Shown here piece after piece: positions 2,216 through 14,700 of a stretch of 64,000 nucleotides of DNA. A model generated the notes under the pieces. It did no database searches, had not been told where the DNA came from, and saw only the letters and a list, made by a program, of their open reading frames with translations. Location of the stretch: assembly GCA_018715805.1 (NCBI GenBank), contig DVKX01000091.1, positions 1 through 64,000 of the forward strand. Reading direction: 5' to 3'. The number at the start of each line of letters is the position of its first letter. Within the stretch, counting starts at the first letter, position 1. Made by a program: the position numbers and the translations under genes. The DNA is from Candidatus Faecousia intestinigallinarum (GTDB lineage: Bacteria; Bacillota; Clostridia; Oscillospirales; Oscillospiraceae).

Positions 2216-4612
2216 ATGCTGATTAAAAATTGGACGCTGCATTATCCGGGCTTTGCACCGCTGCCCTGTGAGGCTCCTGCCACCATGTACAGCGTGCTCT
2301 GGGATCATCGGAAGATTCCCGATCCCTTTTATGGCCTCAATGAGCGGGAGCTGACCCGCCTGGCGGACAAGGACTGCGTTTTTGAAGCCCAGGTAGAGGT
2401 GGATGCACAGGTGATGGCCAGGGACTATGTGGAGCTGACGTTCCACGGTCTGGACACCCTCTGCCGTATTTTCCTCAACGGCAGGCTCCTTGCCAATGTG
2501 AAGAATATGCACCGTGCCTACACCTACGATGTAAAGGCGCTGCTGCATATCGGCAGCAATACCCTGCGGCTGGAATTTCAGTCTCCCACCCGGTTCTTTG
2601 CCCGGATGGCGCAGAAGCATTACCTCTACATGAACGACGGGGACACCATTCCCGGCACTGCCCACCTGCGCAAGGCGCTGTACCAATCTGGCTGGGACTG
2701 GGGTCCCACCCTGCCGGATATGGGCATCTACCGCCCGGTGGAGCTGAACGCCTATGACATTGACCGTATTGACGATGTGGCTGTCCGCCAGGAGCACCGG
2801 GAGGATGGCAGTGTGGAGGTGGAAATCGCCGTCACCGGCAAGCGGGGGGCGGAGACTGCCTGCTATGCCAATATGGACGGTCAGCGGGTTCTGCTGGAGA
2901 ACGGCGTGGGTCGCATCCGTATTGAGAACCCCAAGCTCTGGTGGGTGCGGGGCTACGGTGAGCAGCACCTCTACGATCTGGACGTGGAAATGACAGCCGG
3001 CGGCAAGGTGATCGATACCTGCCATAAGGATATTGGCCTGCGCACGCTGACGGTGAGCACCCAGAAAGACGCGGATGGCCAGGGCAGCGAGTTCTGCTTT
3101 GTAATCAATGGCGTGAAGATCTTCGCCATGGGCGCTAACTATATCCCCCAGGACAATCTGCTCAGCCGGGTCACCCGGGAGCGGCTGGATGAGATGATGG
3201 TGCAGTGCCTGGACGGCAACTTCAATACCCTCCGGGTCTGGGGCGGCGGCTATTATCCCGACGATTACTTTTTTGAATTGTGCGACAAGAACGGCATCAT
3301 TGTCTGGCTGGATTTCATGGTGGCCTGCGCCAACGTGTACCTGACGGCAGAATTTGAACAGGAGTGCATCGAAGAGGCCACAGGCGTGCTGAAGCGGCTG
3401 CATCACCACGCCAGCCTGGGTCTGTTCTGCGGCAACAACGAGATGGAGGAGATGATTGCCAACCAGGGCAAGGGCGACAGCCTGCTGGTGCGCAACGATT
3501 ATATCCGCCTCCATGAGCACCTGCTGCCGGAGCTGTGCGACCGTTACGCGCCCAATACCTTCTATTGGCCCTCCAGCCCTTCCTCCGGCGGCGGCTTTGA
3601 GGAGCCGGGCAACCCTGCGAAGGGCGATACCCACTACTGGGAGGTGTGGCACGGCGGCGTGCCCTTCACCACCTACCGGAAAAAGCACTTCCGTTTCTGC
3701 TCCGAGTACGGCTTTGAGAGCTTCCCCTCTATGAAGACCATCCGTGCCTTCAGCGAGGAGAAGGACTGGAACTGCTTCTCCCGGGTAATGGAGAACCACC
3801 AGAAGTGCAAGGGCGGCAACAGCAAGATCCTGCGCTATCTGGCAGACAATTACCTCTATCCCACCAAGTTTGAGGATCTGGTGTATATTTCCCAGCTATT
3901 GCAGGCGGACGCCATCAAGTATGGCGTGGAGCATTTCCGCCGGGAGCGGGGCTACTGCATGGGTTCCATCTACTGGCAGTTCAACGACTGCTGGCCGGTG
4001 GCCTCCTGGTCCAGCGTGGACAGCTTTGGCCGGTATAAGGCGCTGCACTATGCGGCGAAAAAATTCTATGCGCCGGTGGCCATGGGGCTGTTCCTGGAGA
4101 ACGGCAAGCTCACCGTGAACATCTCCAACGAGACGATGCAGGACTTCCGCGGCAGCATCCATCTGGCCATGTGCCGGGCGGATATGACGGTGCTGGAGGA
4201 GCGCCGGACAGAGGTAGCGGTAGAGAAGCTCACTGCCGAGGATGTGTACCGCTATCCGGTGCAGGCGGAGGACAACTACAGCAATTACCTGTATGTGGAT
4301 CTGTACGACGAAAGCGGCGCATTCCTCATGCGCCAGACGGAGCTGCTGGTGCCGGCAAAGCACTTCTCCTGGGAGAAGCCCACGCTGCGCGCGGTGTGTG
4401 CCGATACGGAGCAGGGCGTGGAGATAACCGTGCAGGCGGATGTGTTTACCAAAGGCGTTGCCATTGATTTCCGGGATTTTGACTGCGTGCTTTCAGACAA
4501 TTTCTTTGACCTGACCAATGCAGAGCCTTACAAAATCCAGGTACGGACAGATCGCAGCGCCGAGGAACTGCAGGAGAACCTGCTGCTCCAGTGCGTAAAC
4601 GAGATTGGCTGA
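2216..4612 (+). CDS. GH2 family beta-mannosidase
   Basis: The 798-residue protein has the layout of a GH2 beta-mannosidase: an N-terminal jelly-roll (to about 170), an immunoglobulin-like domain (about 180-280), a TIM barrel (about 290-620) and C-terminal sandwich domains. YQSGWDWGPTLPDMGIYRPV at 156-175 is typical of mannosidases rather than galactosidases. GNNE (406-409) gives the acid/base Glu409, and FCSEYGFES gives the nucleophile Glu497. No signal peptide is visible, so it should act in the cytoplasm on imported oligosaccharides, for example the Man-beta-1,4-GlcNAc core of N-glycans or beta-mannan fragments. The start is fixed by AAAAGGAGTACAG just upstream. The next gene begins 35 bases after the stop. 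Confidence 0.9.
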   Translation: MLIKNWTLHYPGFAPLPCEAPATMYSVLWDHRKIPDPFYGLNERELTRLADKDCVFEAQVEVDAQVMARDYVELTFHGLDTLCRIFLNGRLLANVKNMHRAYTYDVKALLHIGSNTLRLEFQSPTRFFARMAQKHYLYMNDGDTIPGTAHLRKALYQSGWDWGPTLPDMGIYRPVELNAYDIDRIDDVAVRQEHREDGSVEVEIAVTGKRGAETACYANMDGQRVLLENGVGRIRIENPKLWWVRGYGEQHLYDLDVEMTAGGKVIDTCHKDIGLRTLTVSTQKDADGQGSEFCFVINGVKIFAMGANYIPQDNLLSRVTRERLDEMMVQCLDGNFNTLRVWGGGYYPDDYFFELCDKNGIIVWLDFMVACANVYLTAEFEQECIEEATGVLKRLHHHASLGLFCGNNEMEEMIANQGKGDSLLVRNDYIRLHEHLLPELCDRYAPNTFYWPSSPSSGGGFEEPGNPAKGDTHYWEVWHGGVPFTTYRKKHFRFCSEYGFESFPSMKTIRAFSEEKDWNCFSRVMENHQKCKGGNSKILRYLADNYLYPTKFEDLVYISQLLQADAIKYGVEHFRRERGYCMGSIYWQFNDCWPVASWSSVDSFGRYKALHYAAKKFYAPVAMGLFLENGKLTVNISNETMQDFRGSIHLAMCRADMTVLEERRTEVAVEKLTAEDVYRYPVQAEDNYSNYLYVDLYDESGAFLMRQTELLVPAKHFSWEKPTLRAVCADTEQGVEITVQADVFTKGVAIDFRDFDCVLSDNFFDLTNAEPYKIQVRTDRSAEELQENLLLQCVNEIG

Positions 4613-4647
4613 TGCCGGTCAATACATTAGGAAAGGGGGATCCATAA

Positions 4648-6141: not shown

Positions 6142-6183
6142 ACGATTTTCCCCGGATAGCTTGATGGGGGAGGAAACGAGAAG

Positions 6184-6227
6184 AGCCTGCTGCGAAATGT
6201 ATGTTCGCAGCAGGCTTTGTTTTTTTG
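6184..6227 (+). terminator. Rho-independent terminator after yesL-like gene
   Basis: A perfect 13-bp stem, AGCCTGCTGCGAA pairing with TTCGCAGCAGGCT around a six-base loop, is followed by a T-rich run. It closes the rightward glycan operon and separates it from the recombinase gene. Confidence 0.9.
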
Positions 6228-6255: not shown

Positions 6256-6876
6256 ATCGCAGGGATTGCTTATGGATATATCCGCGTCAGCAGCAAAGAT
6301 CAGAATGAGGATCGGCAGCGGATCGCCTTGTGGGAGGTGCCCGTCCCAGAGAAAAACATTTATATGGACAAGCAATCGGGGAAGGATTTTCAGCGGCCGC
6401 AGTACAGGAAGCTTCTGCGGAAAATGAGAAAAGACGATCTGCTCTATATCAAGAGCATCGATCGTCTGGGGCGGAACTATGGGGAGATCCTGGAACAATG
6501 GCGGGTGCTGACCAAGGAAAAGGGCGTGGATATTGTGGTACTGGATATGCCGCTGCTGGATACCCGCCGGGGGAAGGACTTGCTGGGCGCGTTTCTCAGC
6601 GATATTGTGCTGCAAGTGCTCTCCTTTGTGGCGGAGAATGAGCGAACCAATATCCGCCAGCGTCAGGCGGAAGGAATTGCGGCAGCAAAGGCGCGGGGGG
6701 TACAATTTGGCCGCCCTCCAAAGCCGCTGCCTGAGAACTTTCATTCCGCCTATCAGCGCTGGAAAACGGGAGAAATCACCGGGACGGCTGCGGCAAAAGA
6801 ATGTAGAATGCCGCTGGCCACTTTCCGCTGTCGGGCGGAGACTTATGAAAAAGAATTTGCAATGGAAAAAGAGTAA
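6256..6876 (+). CDS. Small serine recombinase (resolvase/invertase family) with non-standard start
   Basis: The in-frame sequence reads A-Y-G-Y-I-R-V-S-S-K-D-Q, the start of the resolvase domain, with catalytic Ser in RVSS. It continues with IDRLGRNYGEILEQW, LDMPLLDT, and a C-terminal helix-turn-helix after GRPPKPLP. At about 206 residues it has the usual length for a DNA invertase or resolvase. No ATG, GTG or TTG lies ahead of the catalytic Ser in frame: the frame opens at 6229 after a TGA. The first standard codon is TTG 6328, which would remove the active site. GGGAGGGAG at 6242-6250 sits eight bases before ATC 6256, so I place the start there; ATT 6265 is the alternative. The adjacent inverted sites at 6876-7041 suggest it inverts them. 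Confidence 0.75.
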   Translation: MAGIAYGYIRVSSKDQNEDRQRIALWEVPVPEKNIYMDKQSGKDFQRPQYRKLLRKMRKDDLLYIKSIDRLGRNYGEILEQWRVLTKEKGVDIVVLDMPLLDTRRGKDLLGAFLSDIVLQVLSFVAENERTNIRQRQAEGIAAAKARGVQFGRPPKPLPENFHSAYQRWKTGEITGTAAAKECRMPLATFRCRAETYEKEFAMEKE

Positions 6877-6905
6877 TTTACAAAAAAGTGTACTTTTTTG
6901 TAAAT
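6876..6905. repeat. Left crossover-like inverted repeat of a putative invertible segment
   Basis: A 30-bp perfect palindrome with 14-bp arms (ATTTACAAAAAAGT and its complement) flanks a two-base asymmetric centre, GT at 6890-6891. Serine invertase sites are short palindromes around a two-base core, which this matches. GTGTACTTTTT inside it (6888-6898) recurs in inverted orientation at 7021-7031. It starts at the last base of the recombinase stop codon. It could also act as a weak terminator of that gene. Confidence 0.7.
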
Positions 6906-6929: not shown

Positions 6930-6958
6930 AGTATAGCACAGCAGGATAAAAATTGCAA
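6930..6958 (-). promoter_or_regulatory. Sigma-A type promoter inside the putative invertible segment, now facing left
   Basis: Read on the minus strand, TTGCAA (6958-6953), a 17-base spacer and TATACT (6935-6930) form a good promoter. In this orientation it fires towards the 3' end of the recombinase gene, antisense to it. After inversion between the two GT/AC cores it would lie at about 6961-6989 on the plus strand, some 60 bases upstream of the lipoprotein gene at 7057. I see no comparable rightward promoter in the segment. Confidence 0.7.
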
Positions 6959-7014
6959 CACAATCTTTGGATAAATTTTACAGAAGCCGACGGAATATTT
7001 CCCGTGCCGCTTAC

Positions 7015-7041
7015 ATTACCAAAAAGTACACATTTTGAAAA
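7015..7041. repeat. Right crossover-like inverted repeat of a putative invertible segment
   Basis: AAAAAGTACAC at 7021-7031 is the exact inverse of GTGTACTTTTT in the left site. The inner flank extends the match (TTACC against TTACA), and the outer flank ends in TTTTG/CAAAA as in the left site. The central dinucleotide is AC (7028-7029), opposite in orientation to the left GT, as required for inversion rather than deletion. It lies just before the ribosome binding site of the gene at 7057. Confidence 0.65.
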
Positions 7042-7056
7042 GAGAGAGGTGAGACA

Positions 7057-7320
7057 ATGAAGCGAACGGCTCGTATATTGGCGGCGATTTTGCTGGTTGC
7101 CATCTGCCTGAGCGCCTGCTCCAGCAAAGAACCCTGTGCCTGGTGCGACAAAAGCCCAACAAAAGCTTACCGCACCTCCAGCGGCGACACCGTATATGTC
7201 TGCAAGGATTGCAGCAGCACCTGTATATTCTGTGGAAAGCCTGCCACCAAGCATTACACCAGCCTGCTGGGAGAGATGTTTGTGTGCGGCGACTGCTACG
7301 AGGCCAGGGTTCGGCGATAA
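7057..7320 (+). CDS. Small Cys-rich lipoprotein, unknown function
   Basis: The 87-residue protein starts with a lipoprotein signal peptide (MKRTARILAAILLVAICLSAC) with lipobox LSAC, so it should be anchored outside the membrane. The mature part has CAWC, CKDC, CIFC and CGDC pairs, which look like two small zinc-binding or disulfide knuckles: CxxC-x(n)-CxxC twice. I do not recognise the family. The start has GAGAGGTGA ahead of it and is the first gene after the putative invertible promoter. A perfect stem-loop (7302-7329) spans its stop codon. Confidence 0.7.
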   Translation: MKRTARILAAILLVAICLSACSSKEPCAWCDKSPTKAYRTSSGDTVYVCKDCSSTCIFCGKPATKHYTSLLGEMFVCGDCYEARVRR

Positions 7321-7329
7321 GAACCCTGG
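7302..7329 (+). other. Stem-loop spanning the lipoprotein stop codon
   Basis: GCCAGGGTTC pairs perfectly with GAACCCTGGC around an eight-base loop that includes the TAA stop. No T-run follows, so it is not a standard terminator. It may set mRNA stability or limit read-through into the next gene. Confidence 0.45.
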
Positions 7330-7415
7330 CTGGCCCCCCGTCGTGATCTTGGAAACCATGCGGACGCTGGATCGCTGACAGCGTTCCGGTAATCTTTGAG
7401 AAGGAAGTGCAAGCA

Positions 7416-7865
7416 ATGGAAAAAGGAAAATTGTTGGTATCCACCCGCACCAACGGCTGGGGGAAGAAGATCTTCTTCCTTTTGGGTGCGCTTATATGCG
7501 CTTTCGCAGGCAGCAACAGTCTTTCCCACCCGGAATTTTTCTTTCAATTCAGTTGGAGCAATTACAAAATCATCGCATATCTTTTCGCTATATGTTGTAT
7601 GCTGGGATTTGGGTTTAGCTTGGGCGCGGTTCTGTCCTATTGCGAGGTTTATGAGCACGGAGTTGTTGGGAGAACCCAAATCACTTTTAGGCACGGTTGG
7701 CAAAAATTCGATGTGCGTTACAGCGACATTTTGAATGTGACCGAATCCGGACCAATGGTTCTAACCATCACTGCGCAATACGGTAAGTATACCGTATATA
7801 CTTTTAGCAATCATGAGGCGGCGTTGCAGGAAATCCGCACACGGATGAAGGGCGGCGCGGCGTAA
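7416..7865 (+). CDS. Hypothetical membrane protein with PH-like C-terminal region
   Basis: The 149-residue protein has two hydrophobic segments (about 15-37 and 50-80) with a short loop between them. The C-terminal third, EHGVVGRTQITFRHGWQKFD followed by VRYSDILNVTES, resembles the beta-strand pattern of bacterial pleckstrin-like membrane proteins. That is a resemblance only; no named family is certain. I chose ATG 7416 over GTG 7407 because AAGGAAG at 7401-7407 is then at normal spacing. It lies in the rightward run of small genes that begins at 7057. Confidence 0.6.
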   Translation: MEKGKLLVSTRTNGWGKKIFFLLGALICAFAGSNSLSHPEFFFQFSWSNYKIIAYLFAICCMLGFGFSLGAVLSYCEVYEHGVVGRTQITFRHGWQKFDVRYSDILNVTESGPMVLTITAQYGKYTVYTFSNHEAALQEIRTRMKGGAA

Positions 7866-7883
7866 GGCGCGCCTTTCGGCTCC

Positions 7884-7936
7884 GCAGGGCAGCAGCCAAG
7901 CAGTCCACTCCGCCAGGAGTGAGCTGCTGCGCCCCG
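7884..7936 (+). other. GC-rich stem-loop between two small genes
   Basis: GCAGCAG near the start pairs with CTGCTGC near the end, and CACTCC with GGAGTG inside, giving a long interrupted hairpin. There is no T-run, so it may be a processing or stability element rather than a terminator. Confidence 0.35.
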
Positions 7937-7998
7937 CCAAAGCGTTATACAAGTACCCGCATTTTAAAAGAGTAACAAAATTGAAAGGAAGCTTTCTT

Positions 7999-8424
7999 AT
8001 GGAAACACAGATTGCTCAAAAAGTAGGGGCACTAAAAACAAACAGAGGGTTCATCAAATATCTTCTGCTGTCAACGATCACATTTGGGATCTATCACATT
8101 GTGATTATGTCCTCGATTTCAACCGACATCAACACCATTGCCAGCCGGCACGATGGGAAGAAAACGATGCATTACTGTTTGCTGTATTTTTTGGTTTCTT
8201 GGATCACGTTGTTTATTGGCAATTTGGTGTGGTATCACAATCTTTCTAAGCGAATTGAAGATGAACTGAAAAGGCGCAACATTACCTATTCTTTTGGCGT
8301 CATGTCCTACTGGGGATGGAACTTGCTTGGCCTATTGATTGCAATTGGCCCGCTTGTATATAAGTATAAGCTGTTCAAAGCGATGAATCTTTTGTCTGAG
8401 AATTATAATACAAACGGTTGCTAA
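7999..8424 (+). CDS. DUF4234-like membrane protein
   Basis: The 141-residue protein shows the DUF4234 pattern: a short polar N-terminus, R-G-F-I-K-Y-L-L-L, TFGIYHI, a second helix around LLYFLVSWITLFIGNLVWYH, then a helix after YSFGVMSYWGWN. Function of the family is unknown. ATG 7999 is preferred to the TTG at 7981 because GAAAGGAAG lies in front of it. It belongs to the same run of small accessory genes and has lower GC than the glycan genes around. Confidence 0.65.
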   Translation: METQIAQKVGALKTNRGFIKYLLLSTITFGIYHIVIMSSISTDINTIASRHDGKKTMHYCLLYFLVSWITLFIGNLVWYHNLSKRIEDELKRRNITYSFGVMSYWGWNLLGLLIAIGPLVYKYKLFKAMNLLSENYNTNGC

Positions 8425-8506
8425 AGCGTGCAATCCTTTTGTATACCGTCCGATTTGGCTGTTGTTTCTATGCCATACGGGCGGCGTGGAGAAAGGAGGG
8501 AAAGCT

Positions 8507-8749
8507 TTGGAGATTCCATTTGGAGGGATTATATGTGTATTATATGCGGTTTGCTATGTTACGGTTGGAATCACTGGCGCCAGAAGGTTCGCGGATAATT
8601 ATTTAGAGAAGTTATTTATGAAACCGAAGCTGTGGTGGCTTCGATATGTGCTCATTGCCATTTTGGCGTTTGGTTTTGCATACATAGAATTTGCACGCCT
8701 GATAATCACTGGTATTCTGAAAGTGATACAGTTTATGATGAGGGGTTAA
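8507..8749 (+). CDS. Small two-helix membrane protein, unknown
   Basis: The frame encodes about 80 residues from TTG 8507, which has AAAGGAGGG (8492-8500) at ideal spacing; a longer start at 8462 has no such site. Two membrane helices are visible (about 5-25 and 43-65). The basic loop between them contains KLFMKPKLWWLRY. I recognise no family. It lies between the DUF4234-like gene and the JAMM-domain gene. Confidence 0.5.
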   Translation: MEIPFGGIICVLYAVCYVTVGITGARRFADNYLEKLFMKPKLWWLRYVLIAILAFGFAYIEFARLIITGILKVIQFMMRG

Positions 8750-8761
8750 CGCATTTTCTTT

Positions 8762-9220
8762 GTGTTATTTTATGGTTGTGAAGCTATTCCGCTTATGATG
8801 ATTCAGAAACATATTTATTGGAAGCTGTTGAATTCCGTGCCCACGGCACCGCCAGAAGCCGGGGGAATCCTGGGCAGTGTGAATGGCATTGTTTGCGCAT
8901 ACCAAATGGATATCGGATATTTTGCTGGGCGCGGATGCTTTTATTCCCCCAATACAAGTTTTCTAAATTCCCACATAAAGAAATGGCAAGAGCAGGGCAT
9001 TCAATTTTGCGGTATATTTCACACGCATTTTTTCGGGGTGCAAACCCTATCGGATGGGGATGCCTGGTATATTCGCGCAATTATGCAAGCAATGCCACGC
9101 TGTATTCATCAATTATACTTTCCGATTGTTGTACTGCCGGAAAAGGAAATCGTGTCATATTTCGCAATACATAACGGAGAGATGGTTGAGATCAGAAACG
9201 ATGTCTTGCGCATTGTATGA
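8762..9220 (+). CDS. JAB/MPN (JAMM) metalloprotease-like protein
   Basis: The 152-residue protein has a complete JAMM motif: Glu32 in PEAGGILG, then His87-x-His89, seven residues, Ser97 and Asp100 (FHTHFFGVQTLSDGD). These residues bind zinc and activate water in de-ubiquitinase-like and RadC/Mec-like enzymes, so catalysis is plausible. Bacterial JAMM proteins often trim or release small proteins, so a substrate encoded nearby is possible. The start is uncertain: GTG 8762 opens the frame, while ATG 8795 or 8798 would also keep the motif; none has a clear ribosome site. The next gene, a tiny Cys-rich protein, follows within 15 bases. Confidence 0.75.
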   Translation: MLFYGCEAIPLMMIQKHIYWKLLNSVPTAPPEAGGILGSVNGIVCAYQMDIGYFAGRGCFYSPNTSFLNSHIKKWQEQGIQFCGIFHTHFFGVQTLSDGDAWYIRAIMQAMPRCIHQLYFPIVVLPEKEIVSYFAIHNGEMVEIRNDVLRIV

Positions 9221-9234
9221 AAGGAGGAATATCT

Positions 9235-9414
9235 GTGGAATCTGAATTTGAAATCAAATTGCCAGAGGGGACTTTCTTTGGCAACTGCCGCAATTGCCGG
9301 TATGCCGACTGGAATGATACCGATTCGAGTGGAAGAGTTTACTGCGACGGCGGCTATGGTGGGTATAATCGTCCCAGTGACAGAAACGGTTGCAATTATT
9401 GGAGAGAGGGCTAA
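9235..9414 (+). CDS. Small Cys-rich protein, unknown
   Basis: The 59-residue protein begins at GTG 9235, which has AAAGGAGG (9219-9226) at good spacing. It contains FGNCRNCRYADW, then RVYCDGGYGG and a C-terminal NGCNYWREG. The four Cys suggest a zinc or disulfide knot, and CRNCRY resembles small Cys-patch domains of unknown role. It lies 15 bases after the JAMM gene, so the two are probably co-expressed. It may be the partner or substrate of that enzyme; that is inference. Confidence 0.55.
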   Translation: MESEFEIKLPEGTFFGNCRNCRYADWNDTDSSGRVYCDGGYGGYNRPSDRNGCNYWREG

Positions 9415-9461: not shown

Positions 9462-9491
9462 TCAGCCCGGGTACGGAAGTACCCGGGCTGA
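9462..9491. terminator. Bidirectional terminator between convergent genes
   Basis: A perfect 13-bp stem (TCAGCCCGGGTAC and its complement) around GGAA lies between the rightward small genes and the leftward GH3 gene. It can serve both strands. Confidence 0.85.
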
Positions 9492-9511: not shown

Positions 9512-11725
9512 TTATAATTGGAAGGAGCCGCGTAGGAATTCCTGGCCGTTGTCGCACAAGTACCAGGCGATTTCCCCGGGAACCGGCCGGAAGCGCATGG
9601 CACTGTCCCACTGCCCCAGACTCTCCGCCGGGATAGCAATGGTCAAGCGCTTACTTTCCCCTGCCTCCAGCCACACCTTGGTGAAGCCGCATAGCTGCCG
9701 TATCCGGGAGGTGGCGACCCCCTGGAGCCGATGGAGATAGAGCTGAGGCACCGCCCAGCCGCCCCGTGCACCGGTATTGGTCAGGGAGAAAGCTACCTGG
9801 CGGCTGTCTGCCGATAGCAGGGAATAGGCAAAGCAGGTATAGCTGAGACCGCAGCCAAAGGAGAACTGGGGCTGCAACGCATCGTAATAGGCCATGGGGC
9901 GGTAGGAATCCTTGGCGTTGTAGTAAACCGGCAGCTGCCCCGCCTGGTCGGGCAGGGAGACGCAGAGCCGTCCGGCCGGCTCCCGCAGGCCTAGGAGCAG
10001 GCGGGCAATGGCTTCGCCCCCGGTGGGGCCGGGATAGAAGCAGCAGAGGATGGCATCGGAGTACTGGGCAATTTCTGCCATTTCATAGGGGCGCCCGGCA
10101 ATAAGGACGGTAATCACCGTTTTTCCCGCTGCTTTCAGCCGGCGCAGCAGCTCCAGCTGCTCGCCAGGGAGCCGCAGCGTCGCTGTATCCACATTTTCTC
10201 CGCAGTCCATGGTAATATCCTGCTGATACTTCATGGCGCCGTTGCTGTCAAATTCTCCTGCCAGGGCAAAACGGCTGGAGGTGCCTCCCACCGCCGCGAT
10301 TACGGTATCGCACCCGCGCAGAGCTTCCAGAGCGGCGGGAATATCCGCTGCGCCGAACATCCCGCAGCCCGGGTGATAGCACAGGGAGGTTCCCTGCTCC
10401 GGGAGCAGCGCCTCCAGCCCCTGGCGCAGAGTGACGCCGCCCCGCACGGGCGGGGTATAATCTCCCAGCTGATTGTAAATGGCGTCCGCGTTGGGACCGG
10501 TGAGTCCTAGGACTTTCATGGGAGGCAAAGGCAGGCAATCGCTGTTTTTCAGCAGCACCGGGGTGTGTTCTGCCAGGGTTTTCACCTGGGGGTATTGTTC
10601 CGGGGTATATTGCTGCCAATGGTTGTTTTCCGGCACATAGGGATGCTCAAACAGTCCCCGACGGAACTTCAGGGTTAGGACGCGCAGGACGGCGTTGTCC
10701 ACCGTGGCCTCGTCTGTGCGCTCCTGGGCGATGGCTTCCTCCAGGCGGGCAAAGCCGGTGTCCCAAAGCCCCATGTCCACACCGGCGTTCAGTGCCAGTG
10801 CTCCGGAGGCGGCGCGGTTGCCGGTGACGGCGTCCAGCTGATCGATGGCCACACCGTCGGACATTACAAAGCCCTGGAATCCATATTCTTCCCGCAGAAG
10901 TTCGGTGAGCAGCCAGCGGTTGGCATGGCAGTAAATACCGTCGATCTCGTTATAAGCGGCCATAAAACCGGAAACCCCGGCTTCCACGCAGGCTTTTACC
11001 GGGGGCAGGTGAATTTCCCGCAGTTCCCGGAGGCCAATCCGGGCAGCGCTGGCATTCACACCGCCGGTGGTCTCTCCTTGGGCGCAGAGATGCTTGGCCA
11101 CCACATCTACCCCCTGGCTTTGGATAGCCTGCACCAGGGCTTGCGCCATCTGGGAGGCCAGATAGGGATCTTCTCCAAAGCACTCCTCGCTGCGCCCCCA
11201 CCGGGGATCCCGGAGTATGTCCAGCATGGATACCAGCGCCAGATCCACGCCCATAGCGGCCAGCTGCTTTCCGCAGATCTGCGCCGCCTGTGCCAACAAT
11301 TCCGGAGCAAAGGAGCAGCCGGAGGCCAGATTCACCGGCAGCAGATAACCGTCCAGCGCTTGGTGCCCGTGGGGGCACTCGGAACTGAACAGCACGGGGA
11401 TGCCCAGACGAGAATGCTCCAGGACGTATTTCTGCACTTCATTGCGGACTTTGGGGGCAAGCACCCCGTCCAGCCCGGTGTCAAAATCCTTTCCAGACCA
11501 GGGATCTGCCCGATGGAGGCCATAGAGCGCCCCCAGGCCGCCGTAGCGCGCCACCTCCGCTGTAAATTCCTCTGTAAATGTTACCTCCTGCCCCTGGCGA
11601 TGGTAAATGCCGAAGCCATAGAGCCGCTGGGTCAGCTGCCCGATCTTTTCCCGCAGAGTCATCCGGGAGAGAAGATCCGCCGCTCGGGCTTCCGGAGAAA
11701 GGTTTGGATTCTGATATGCTTCCAT
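9512..11725 (-). CDS. GH3 family glycoside hydrolase (beta-glucosidase-like)
   Basis: The 737-residue protein has a GH3 barrel (about 15-330), an alpha/beta sandwich (about 375-590) and a C-terminal fibronectin-like domain. The nucleophile Asp290 is in FVMSDGVAIDQ. The usual KHFAGHG segment is KHLCAQGETTGG here, a moderate departure. There is no signal peptide, so it should act inside the cell. GH3 enzymes remove terminal beta-linked glucose, xylose, GlcNAc or similar sugars; specificity cannot be read from sequence alone. ATG 11725 is chosen because GAGGTG precedes it. A 12-residue longer form from 11737 is not supported. It is the last gene of the leftward transporter operon. Confidence 0.85.
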   Translation of the reverse strand: MEAYQNPNLSPEARAADLLSRMTLREKIGQLTQRLYGFGIYHRQGQEVTFTEEFTAEVARYGGLGALYGLHRADPWSGKDFDTGLDGVLAPKVRNEVQKYVLEHSRLGIPVLFSSECPHGHQALDGYLLPVNLASGCSFAPELLAQAAQICGKQLAAMGVDLALVSMLDILRDPRWGRSEECFGEDPYLASQMAQALVQAIQSQGVDVVAKHLCAQGETTGGVNASAARIGLRELREIHLPPVKACVEAGVSGFMAAYNEIDGIYCHANRWLLTELLREEYGFQGFVMSDGVAIDQLDAVTGNRAASGALALNAGVDMGLWDTGFARLEEAIAQERTDEATVDNAVLRVLTLKFRRGLFEHPYVPENNHWQQYTPEQYPQVKTLAEHTPVLLKNSDCLPLPPMKVLGLTGPNADAIYNQLGDYTPPVRGGVTLRQGLEALLPEQGTSLCYHPGCGMFGAADIPAALEALRGCDTVIAAVGGTSSRFALAGEFDSNGAMKYQQDITMDCGENVDTATLRLPGEQLELLRRLKAAGKTVITVLIAGRPYEMAEIAQYSDAILCCFYPGPTGGEAIARLLLGLREPAGRLCVSLPDQAGQLPVYYNAKDSYRPMAYYDALQPQFSFGCGLSYTCFAYSLLSADSRQVAFSLTNTGARGGWAVPQLYLHRLQGVATSRIRQLCGFTKVWLEAGESKRLTIAIPAESLGQWDSAMRFRPVPGEIAWYLCDNGQEFLRGSFQL

Positions 11726-11747
11726 AAAACACCTCAAATTGCAAAAT

Positions 11748-11767
11748 GGGGCGGCTGAGGCCGCCCC
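11748..11767 (-). terminator. Stem-loop between GH38 and GH3 genes
   Basis: GGGGCGGC pairs with GCCGCCCC around a four-base loop. On the minus strand it is followed by ATTTTG. It may reduce read-through from the GH38 gene into the GH3 gene or protect the upstream mRNA end. Confidence 0.55.
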
Positions 11768-11780
11768 ATAATTGGATTGT

Positions 11781-14700
11781 TTACCGCAGGAGGATGGTCT
11801 TGATCTCGTAGGGCTTGATGGTAAAGGTTACCTTACCGTCTACGATGGGCAGTTCCTCCTCTACTTCCTCCAGCAGATTGGTGCTGTAGGCATGGGCAGC
11901 GGCGGCGGGAACGTGCAGCGTGGTCTTGGTACGGGCATTTTCGCACTCATACAGACGCAGCACAGTACCCTCGCCGTCCTCGGCCTGCTTCACCGTCTCC
12001 AGCACCACGTTGCGGGGCTCCACGCTGGCATAGCTGAACTGCTTGCCGGGAACGCCGCCCTGCACCGCGTAGGCGGGCTGGTTCAGGTTGTAGGACTCCT
12101 GCACAGTGTTGGCGCTCTTCCAGGTACCGGCATGGGGATACAGGGAGTAGGTGAAATAGTGCATCTCCACATCGGCGTTGGGGTTTGGCTCCACGCCGCA
12201 CTTGATCAGAGTCAGCGCCACAGTGCCGTCGTTGATGGAGTGGCCGTACTTGCAGTCGTTGAGCAGGCTCACGCCGTAGTTGCCTTCGGAGAAGTCCATC
12301 CACTTCTGGCCGCAGCTTTCGAAGCGCGCCTTGTCCCAGGAAGTGTTGGTGTGGGTCTTGCGGGTCACGTTGCCGAACTGCACGTCGAAGGTCGCCTCGT
12401 CGGAATGGACATCCACGGGGAACTCCACCTTCAGCAGATGCTGATGCTCTTTCCAGTCAACCACATTCTCAAAGTCAATGCGGCGGCTGTCCGCGTAGAA
12501 GTGGATCTTCTGACGGATGGTGCTCAGGCTGCAGCGATACTCCACTTCCAGCGTGGTGCGCACAGGGCCTTCCTCCGTCCAGCGCATAGCCACCAGGTCG
12601 TTCACCGGCCAGGACTTTTCGGTGTAGTACATATCCACGTCCCAGTTGTCAAAGTAGATGGGCTTGTCCTCGTAGAGACGGAACTGGTTGCCGGCTTTGC
12701 CGGACTTCAATACCTCGCGGTCGTTCTCCTTGTCGAAGATGGAGGTAAAGTTGCCGTTCTCATCCAGCACGATGGAATAGAAGGGCGTTTCCAAATGATA
12801 ATCATCGGTGCGGGTGAAGGGGCTGGCCGCAATGGCCTCCGTCTTGGCCAGGGTCTTGTAACCCTTGGAAGGAAGATCCTTCAGATAGGCCACGGCGCCG
12901 TCCTGCGTCTGCTGCACAGGGAACACATTACCATTTTCATCCCGCAGGGCGGAGGCGTCCACGCTGCCCAGATTCACGATGTCGTCACGCTGGAAGCCCA
13001 GGGTATTGAACACGGTCACGCCGTCGCCCTCGCCGGTGAGCGCTGCCAGCCGCTGATGGATGAGGCCGGTGACTTCCTCCGCCAGCTGCGCATATTCCAC
13101 CTTGGTCACGTCATAAACTTCCGCGATGGAGGAGCCGGGGAGGATGTCGTGGAACTGGTTCAGCAGAATAATATCCCGCCACAGCCGGGTATCCTCCTCG
13201 GCCGGGTAGTTGCCGGTCAGCACGCCCAGCAGCTCCAGATCCATCATCATGAACTCGCTCTTCCGGTTGCCCCGTTTGTTGCGCGCCATAGAGGTGTAGG
13301 TGCCGCGGTGGTACTCAAAGTAGAACTCGCCCTCCCAAGTATCCAGATGGGGGTTGTTCTTAACGCGTGCATTGAGTTCGTCGAAGTACACGCGGGCAGT
13401 CTCCTGCCGCACCATGGGAATCCCCTTTACGCCCTTTTCCATACGCTTGGAGGTTTCCAGCATCCAGCGGGTGGGGCCGCCGCCGCCGTCGCCATAGCCA
13501 TAGGAGATCAGGATGTCATTGTTGATCTCCTTGTTCTGGTAACGGGTCCAGCCGCCCATGATGGAGCCGGGGTGGAGCTTGCCGTTGTAAGTAGTGAAGA
13601 AGTTCTGCTTGGGATCCTGCTCCTCATCCACGGTGGTGATCAGGTGGGTCAGCACTTCGCTGCCGTCGATGCCCCGCCAGATGAAAGTATCGTTGGGAAT
13701 CTTGTTGATCTGGTTCCAAGCCAGTTTCGTGGTCATGAAGTAATCCACACCGGACTTCTTCATGATCTGAGGCAGGGCGCCGGAGTAGCCGAACACGTCG
13801 GGCAGCCAAAGGATCTTGTTGTCCCGGCCAAACTCCTCCCGGAAGAAACGCTTGCCGTACAGGAACTGCCGCACCAGGGACTCGCCGGAGGTCAGGTTGC
13901 AGTCGGCTTCCAGCCACATACCGCCTTCCACCTCCCAGCGACCCTCCGCCACGCGCTCCTTGATCTTGGCATACAGCTCGGGGTAGCGCTGCTTCAGGAA
14001 GTAGTACAGGACGGGCTGGCTGGACATGAACTTATAGTTGGGGTACTCCTCCATCAGCTTGAGCACAGTGGCAAAGGAGCGCACCACCTTTTCCCGGGTC
14101 TGGGCGACCGTCCACCACCATGCCACATCGATGTGGGTGTGGCCAATGCAGGTGGCGATCACGTCGGCGTGGCCGCCCATCTTCTCGTACAAATTCTCGG
14201 TAAGATAGGCCTGCGCCTGACGCAGGGTGGTGTAGAAAGCTTCGGAGTAGGGCTGGCGCATATCCAGCATATTGATGGCATTGTTCATCACGGTGCGGAT
14301 ATCCAGCCGGGTCTTGTCGTCATCCTCCATACGCTTGAAAGCCTGCAGGGGGATGAGCAGGTCGTAGTAGAAGTGATTGATTTCCTCATCCATGGTGAAG
14401 AGGGTGGCCAGGAAGTTGAACTCATGGTGCAGCGTGCCGGTATAGGCCTGGATGTCGATGTGCAGCACCTCTCCAGCCTTGCCCTTTTCCCGCAGCAGCA
14501 CTTCCCGGTGGTGCATATCTGCACCCTGCACCACCTCGCCGTTCACAAATACCAGGAACTGGGGATTCTTGCCGTCGTCCCACTCCTCGATCTGGGTGTG
14601 GATCTTGAACCAGACGGACTCGCCCTCCATGTCCTCGGGGACGGTGATGGTGCTGCGGAACCAGTAATGCTCGCCGGGGATACCCTTGAAGTCCGTCTTC

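Follow-up and report, generated by a model that had tools for sequence, protein, structure and literature searches.

A JAMM metallopeptidase-like protein and its small four-cysteine neighbour behind a predicted invertible promoter in a gut Clostridia genome

Which of the six small genes that lie behind a DNA invertase in Candidatus Faecousia intestinigallinarum belong together, and what might they do? We analyzed a stretch of 64,000 nucleotides from this genome (contig DVKX01000091.1, positions 1 to 64,000; hereafter the window). A first-pass annotation had described six small rightward genes and proposed that they form one surface or envelope system, switched by inversion, whose JAMM enzyme acts on or with a small Cys-rich partner. 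All six ORFs exist at 7057–9414, flanked on one side by an invertase and its GTGTAC inverted-repeat promoter switch and on the other by a strong terminator, and some of their starts could be refined. The features are as follows.

6271–6876, + strand: serine recombinase (DNA invertase, Mpi/Pin type; Pfam Resolvase 1.2e-28, PHROG DNA invertase 5.8e-50)
6876–6905, + strand: left recombination site, ATTTACAAAAAAGT-GT-ACTTTTTTGTAAAT, central dinucleotide GT
6930–6958, − strand: putative promoter within the invertible segment, TTGCAA-17-TATACT with extended −10 (a consensus match only, the best in the segment)
7014–7038, − strand: right recombination site, inverted, central dinucleotide AC on the + strand
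7057–7320, + strand: gene 1, Cys-rich lipoprotein with two zinc-ribbon-like CxxC units (ATG 7057; lipobox LSAC)
7416–7865, + strand: gene 2, two-TM protein with a C-terminal beta domain (ATG 7416), PH-like in the judgement of the first-pass annotation
7999–8424, + strand: gene 3, DUF4234 membrane protein (ATG 7999; Pfam accession PF14018, 7.7e-21)
8507–8749, + strand: gene 4, small two-helix membrane protein (TTG 8507, preceded by AAAGGAGG)
8795–9220, + strand: gene 5, JAMM/MPN+ metallopeptidase-like protein of 141 aa with an intact motif
9235–9414, + strand: gene 6, 59-aa four-cysteine (Cys4) protein, Cx2Cx15Cx15C (GTG 9235, preceded by AAAGGAGG), an obligate neighbour of the JAMM gene
9462–9491, + strand: terminator-like hairpin closing the run (13 pairs, then a T-rich tail)

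Strong terminator-like hairpins lie on both sides of the run (6182–6218 and 9462–9491). Promoter and terminator matches inside it are weak, with 8 promoter matches against 5.2 expected from shuffled sequence, in agreement with the earlier statement that the run has no clear internal promoter or terminator. The lipobox of gene 1 and the PF14018 match of gene 3 likewise bear out the calls of a Cys-rich lipoprotein and a DUF4234-like protein. Gene 1 also has a weak zf-C4_ClpX-like match (7.5e-5), and genes 2, 4, 5 and 6, searched singly in Pfam and NCBIfam, gave no match. A longer start at 8462 is less likely for gene 4, and alignment places the start of gene 5 at ATG 8795 or 8798 rather than at 8762. 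The GC content of genes 2–6 (0.40–0.48) is lower than that of the flanking genes (0.54–0.62), which is consistent with horizontal acquisition. A search for an empty site via the upstream DUF624 gene returned distant homologues only.

The switch upstream of the run is an ordinary example of a known switch type. As in other serine-invertase switches, the invertase sits beside opposed sites that flank a promoter, and homologous invertases show the same arrangement. The invertase matches the NCBIfam Mpi family at 6e-14, below that model's cutoff. Oppositely oriented 21-nt arms (6883–6903 and 7016–7036) are complementary at 90%, and the recombination-site pattern occurs three times in the window, where 0.01 matches would be expected. 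Around its central GT the left site is almost perfectly palindromic, and the right site is centred on AC; inverted GT and AC centres fit inversion by the serine recombinase family. Because the best promoter lies on the minus strand, directed away from the cassette, the cassette is predicted to be OFF in the assembled orientation. Invertons with an adjacent serine invertase occur in gut bacteria (PMC11892184), and the window resembles them in its invertase, inverted sites, internal promoter and downstream cargo. Unlike the known invertons, it carries a JAMM-Cys4 module, a cargo without report in the inverton literature that we compared.

Of 200 genomes from the window's taxonomic family, 67 contain an invertase of this family, with GTGTAC-type inverted repeats after the invertase in about 25 of the 40 loci inspected. 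Cargo genes, recognised by reading the sequences, include restriction-modification-like genes (L056, L058, L061, L067), an Erm-type methylase (L057), S-layer or pilin-like surface proteins (e.g. L059, L063, L070, L093) and flagellin (L083, L088, L095). Since this cargo is varied, its identity alone indicates neither a surface nor a defence function.

The JAMM-Cys4 pair recurs well beyond the window. We collected 40 JAMM genes from 39 loci, mostly in gut Clostridia, and built HMMs from nine of these loci. A same-strand gene for a four-cysteine protein of about 60 aa is present in the locus of every one of the 40, is detected at E<1e-3 for 38 and lies within 100 bp for 35; the copies in L122 and L133 are weaker yet recognisable. 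The loci were picked by JAMM motif or protein, with the single exception of L152, found via the Cys profile, so their choice is not biased towards the Cys gene. L013, whose contig ends within its JAMM gene, was left out of the pair count. The converse search, with the Cys profile only, covered 299 genomes of the phylum and yielded one new true carrier (L152), JAMM gene included. A Cys match in genome G1088 proved to be a false positive inside an unrelated ORF. Distance matrices of the JAMM and Cys proteins correlate at r=0.57, a value reached in 0 of 9999 permutations (Mantel test, which ignores species kinship). From these sequences, the JAMM and Cys4 proteins are well supported as partners.

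In the closest pairs, the Cys protein is 85–97% identical and the JAMM protein 58–74%. The better conservation of the Cys protein favours a constrained structural, cofactor or substrate protein; a structural or cofactor role explains it no less well than cleavage as a substrate would. The pair is patchily distributed (2 of 150 genomes of the family). Its cultured carriers include Ruminococcus sp. zg-924 (L129) and Pseudoflavonifractor phocaeensis An569 (L132). Single-protein scans found no relative in the genome contigs and viral contigs searched, alignment scans found none in viral contigs and none in plasmids, and a phage scan gave one match, in an unannotated 4-kb record. One further JAMM relative, in genome G259 (L014), has neither a Cys4 nor an E1 partner in view. 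Two loci have unusual arrangements. L152 carries five tandem Cys4 genes upstream of a single JAMM gene (9857–12814), with short repeats (LSINIVRSR in translation) dispersed among the copies. In L119 (5861–6757), a Cys4 domain is fused to about 200 more residues, which have no Pfam match, beside a second JAMM fragment.

Gene 5 is predicted to encode a JAMM-type zinc metallopeptidase. The motif of JAMM/MPN+ metallopeptidases is EXnHS/THX7SXXD (PMC300881). The window protein has HTHx7SxxD and the upstream Glu, confirming the intact motif reported earlier, and E..HxHx7SxxD is intact in 39 of 39 aligned proteins with the catalytic E, H, H, S and D invariant. These residues are E20, H75, H77, S85 and D88 in the nine-row alignment and occupy the same columns in 39 rows; HxHx6-8SxxD is found in all 39, with S or T as the usual middle residue and N in L012. 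A profile of the subfamily matches the solved structure of Pyrococcus furiosus JAMM1 (5lda and 5ld9, 1.5e-5 and 2e-5, positions 2–91). Prok-JAB is matched by five of nine relatives. Weak matches link 13 of 39 members to the NCBIfam desampylase (best 3e-6) and 11 of 39 to the cap2_3 model of the anti-phage 6A-MBL system. By inspection, neither the JAMM nor the Cys proteins have a signal peptide or a membrane segment.

Archaeal JAMM1 proteins and desampylases act on ubiquitin-like SAMP proteins. The window JAMM shares its catalytic motif with these enzymes (P. furiosus JAMM1, HvJAMM1); unlike them, it is paired with a Cys4 protein that lacks a Gly-Gly tail, and no E1 homologue is found near it. 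Distant JAMM relatives have no Cys partner and instead have E1/ThiF-like genes fused or adjacent. In the nearest outgroups, L142–L144 (and L141, by position), ThiF/E1 is fused to the JAMM domain or adjoins it, which recalls the JAB-E1 fusions and 6A-type JAB/E1/E2 systems (Iyer et al. 2006, PMC1779556; anti-phage 6A-MBL cap2_3). The paired loci differ from these systems in that the Cys4 gene occupies the partner position. Homologues of the L142 E1 domain were found in no Cys-paired locus, only in outgroups L141, L143 and L144. The window groups with L111, L113 and L115 in a tree (100/95) whose deeper forks are poorly supported and in which the L141 row, read in a wrong frame, was disregarded. 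A change of partner, putatively from E1 to the Cys4 protein, would be the natural reading of these comparisons.

The four cysteines of the small protein are invariant in 45 of 45 family members, with spacings that vary among relatives, and most likely bind zinc or an Fe-S cluster. Searched against Pfam, the family gave nothing above noise. Its members stop a few residues past the last Cys and have no Gly-Gly tail of the kind expected for a ubiquitin-like C-terminus. AlphaFold models are poor (pLDDT 66 with 9 rows and 68 with 45 rows), and Foldseek and VIA-align searches with the low-confidence model (pLDDT 68) found no match. Weak profile matches that pointed to HiPIP, SPT4 and cytochrome c3 were not confirmed, and no HiPIP was matched in profile searches of solved structures.

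Gene 4 adjoins the pair throughout the window's clade (the window, L111, L113 and L115). Its homologues are 55% identical over 80 aa in L115 (3e-22) and 52% over 54 aa in L113; that in L111 was recognised by clustering. The pair is preceded by a window-type invertase or by GTGTAC repeats in six loci (the window, L011, L013, L111, L115 and L123), which upholds the placement of these genes behind an invertible promoter. Most paired loci have no invertible promoter. Recombinases occur in five loci, those of L013, L115 and L123 being of the window type. Recurrent neighbours of the pair include Sel1-repeat or zinc-ribbon proteins (16 loci), XRE regulators (11 loci) and a second Cys-rich family (5 loci). 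Tiny proteins with a repeated D..G.WR.P or D..G.YR.. unit lie beside the pair in L109 (7787–8029), L111 (6401–6625) and L131 (4928–5173). In L130 (3266–6090), the pair is preceded by protein-kinase genes in tandem whose products have zinc ribbons at the N-terminus, one of them with a lectin-C-like domain.

Three other readings of the cassette have to be weighed. That all six genes make up one co-transcribed surface or envelope system is suggested by their common strand, the terminators at both ends, the lack of a strong internal promoter, and the lipo- or membrane proteins encoded by genes 1–4. Genes 1–3 have no homologue in any related locus examined, and genes 4–6 or 5–6 recur elsewhere without them, which indicates that the six genes do not form a single conserved system. 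We consider this reading very improbable, and the earlier proposal of a single surface or envelope system is not supported, on the same point and on the soluble appearance of the JAMM and Cys proteins. A possible identity of the Cys4 protein as a small HiPIP-like [4Fe-4S] protein, akin to the accessory subunits of glycyl-radical enzymes, with the JAMM protein as its maturation or turnover protease, draws on its length and on the Cx2Cx15Cx15C spacing, of the same CX2CXnCXnC type as in MASS-gamma and BSS-gamma (PMC12358834), as well as on a weak Pfam HIPIP match in one of 45 members (E 0.035). Unlike those subunits, the Cys4 protein has no detectable sequence or fold match, the latter judged from a low-confidence model, and we noticed no glycyl-radical enzyme near the pair. 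We regard this possibility as unlikely.

A phase-variable anti-phage or toxin-antitoxin module, in which the Cys4 protein neutralises or senses a JAMM effector, would fit the patchy distribution, the AT-rich, foreign make-up and the XRE-type regulators, and restriction-modification-like genes are among the other cargo of this invertase family. Surface proteins, flagellin and a drug-resistance methylase belong to that cargo as well. A fast-evolving antitoxin is hard to reconcile with the small protein's higher conservation relative to the enzyme, and the small protein is sometimes multi-copy. PADLOC, run on 99 pooled neighbours without a background control, returned mostly regulator matches (HTH, capH, RmrA) together with isolated single matches, and no coherent defence system. 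A defence reading of the pair is not supported, and we give it a low probability.

The reading that we prefer, with about an even chance of being correct, is a module acquired horizontally and expressed phase-variably, whose cytosolic JAMM metallopeptidase acts with or on a dedicated metal- or Fe-S-binding Cys4 partner. The sequences themselves show the elements of the switch, an intact JAMM motif, strict pairing, inheritance of the two genes together and no E1 homologue near the paired JAMMs. The invertase would flip a promoter segment of about 150 bp, and expression of the entire run would thereby be switched on or off in a subset of cells. In the ON state, the JAMM and Cys4 proteins would be produced together, and the JAMM protein may cleave a peptide or isopeptide bond, either within the Cys4 protein or within targets presented by the latter. 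Within the window's clade, the pair is probably recruited to the membrane by the small two-helix product of gene 4. The partnership proposed by the first-pass annotation held in 39 of 39 loci, while enzyme action on the partner, like the substrate and chemistry of the pair, is something that we infer, given the missing Gly-Gly tail and the lack of a nearby E1. Points against the preferred reading are that no ubiquitin-like protein or E1 is recognisable, that the Cys protein is conserved more tightly than the enzyme, that its model is poor and matched nothing, and that most paired loci have no invertible promoter.

JAMM enzymes of known role mostly act on ubiquitin-like proteins. The paired loci encode no recognisable ubiquitin-like protein or E1, and every member of the subfamily lies beside one Cys4 protein; this suggests a different substrate class or a ubiquitin-independent use. 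Published prokaryotic JAB/JAMM systems mostly pair with a ubiquitin-like protein or E1 (PMC1779556), and a nuclease function has been suggested for JAB domains of the RadC and toxin types (PMC3482391), a role that the window protein may conceivably share. The JAMM-Cys4 pair is a new, tightly conserved variation on a known enzyme fold. More tentatively, and with somewhat less than an even chance, it may be a previously undescribed two-protein system of gut Clostridia, phase-variable in some lineages, in which a JAMM isopeptidase swapped its ubiquitin-like/E1 context for a Cys4 substrate or cofactor. The pair is small, soluble-looking and made up of two genes, and is thus directly testable. The pair also extends the cargo under invertible-promoter control in gut bacteria by an enzyme module.

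Related switches were seen at other sites. In L057, an Erm-type rRNA methylase-like gene (3503–4623) sits immediately behind the same kind of invertible switch. The window's own genome contains a second invertase, 86% identical, with a site pair (G000:C4, L018, 1042–1894); a cytosine-5 DNA methyltransferase-like ORF lies across this second switch, and methylation may be phase-variable in this genome through it. Two further site pairs without an adjacent invertase lie upstream of TM2/SPFH/zinc-ribbon genes (G000:C28:6301-6460, L026) and of a repeat protein (G000:C31:18793-18949, L025), and are probably flipped in trans.
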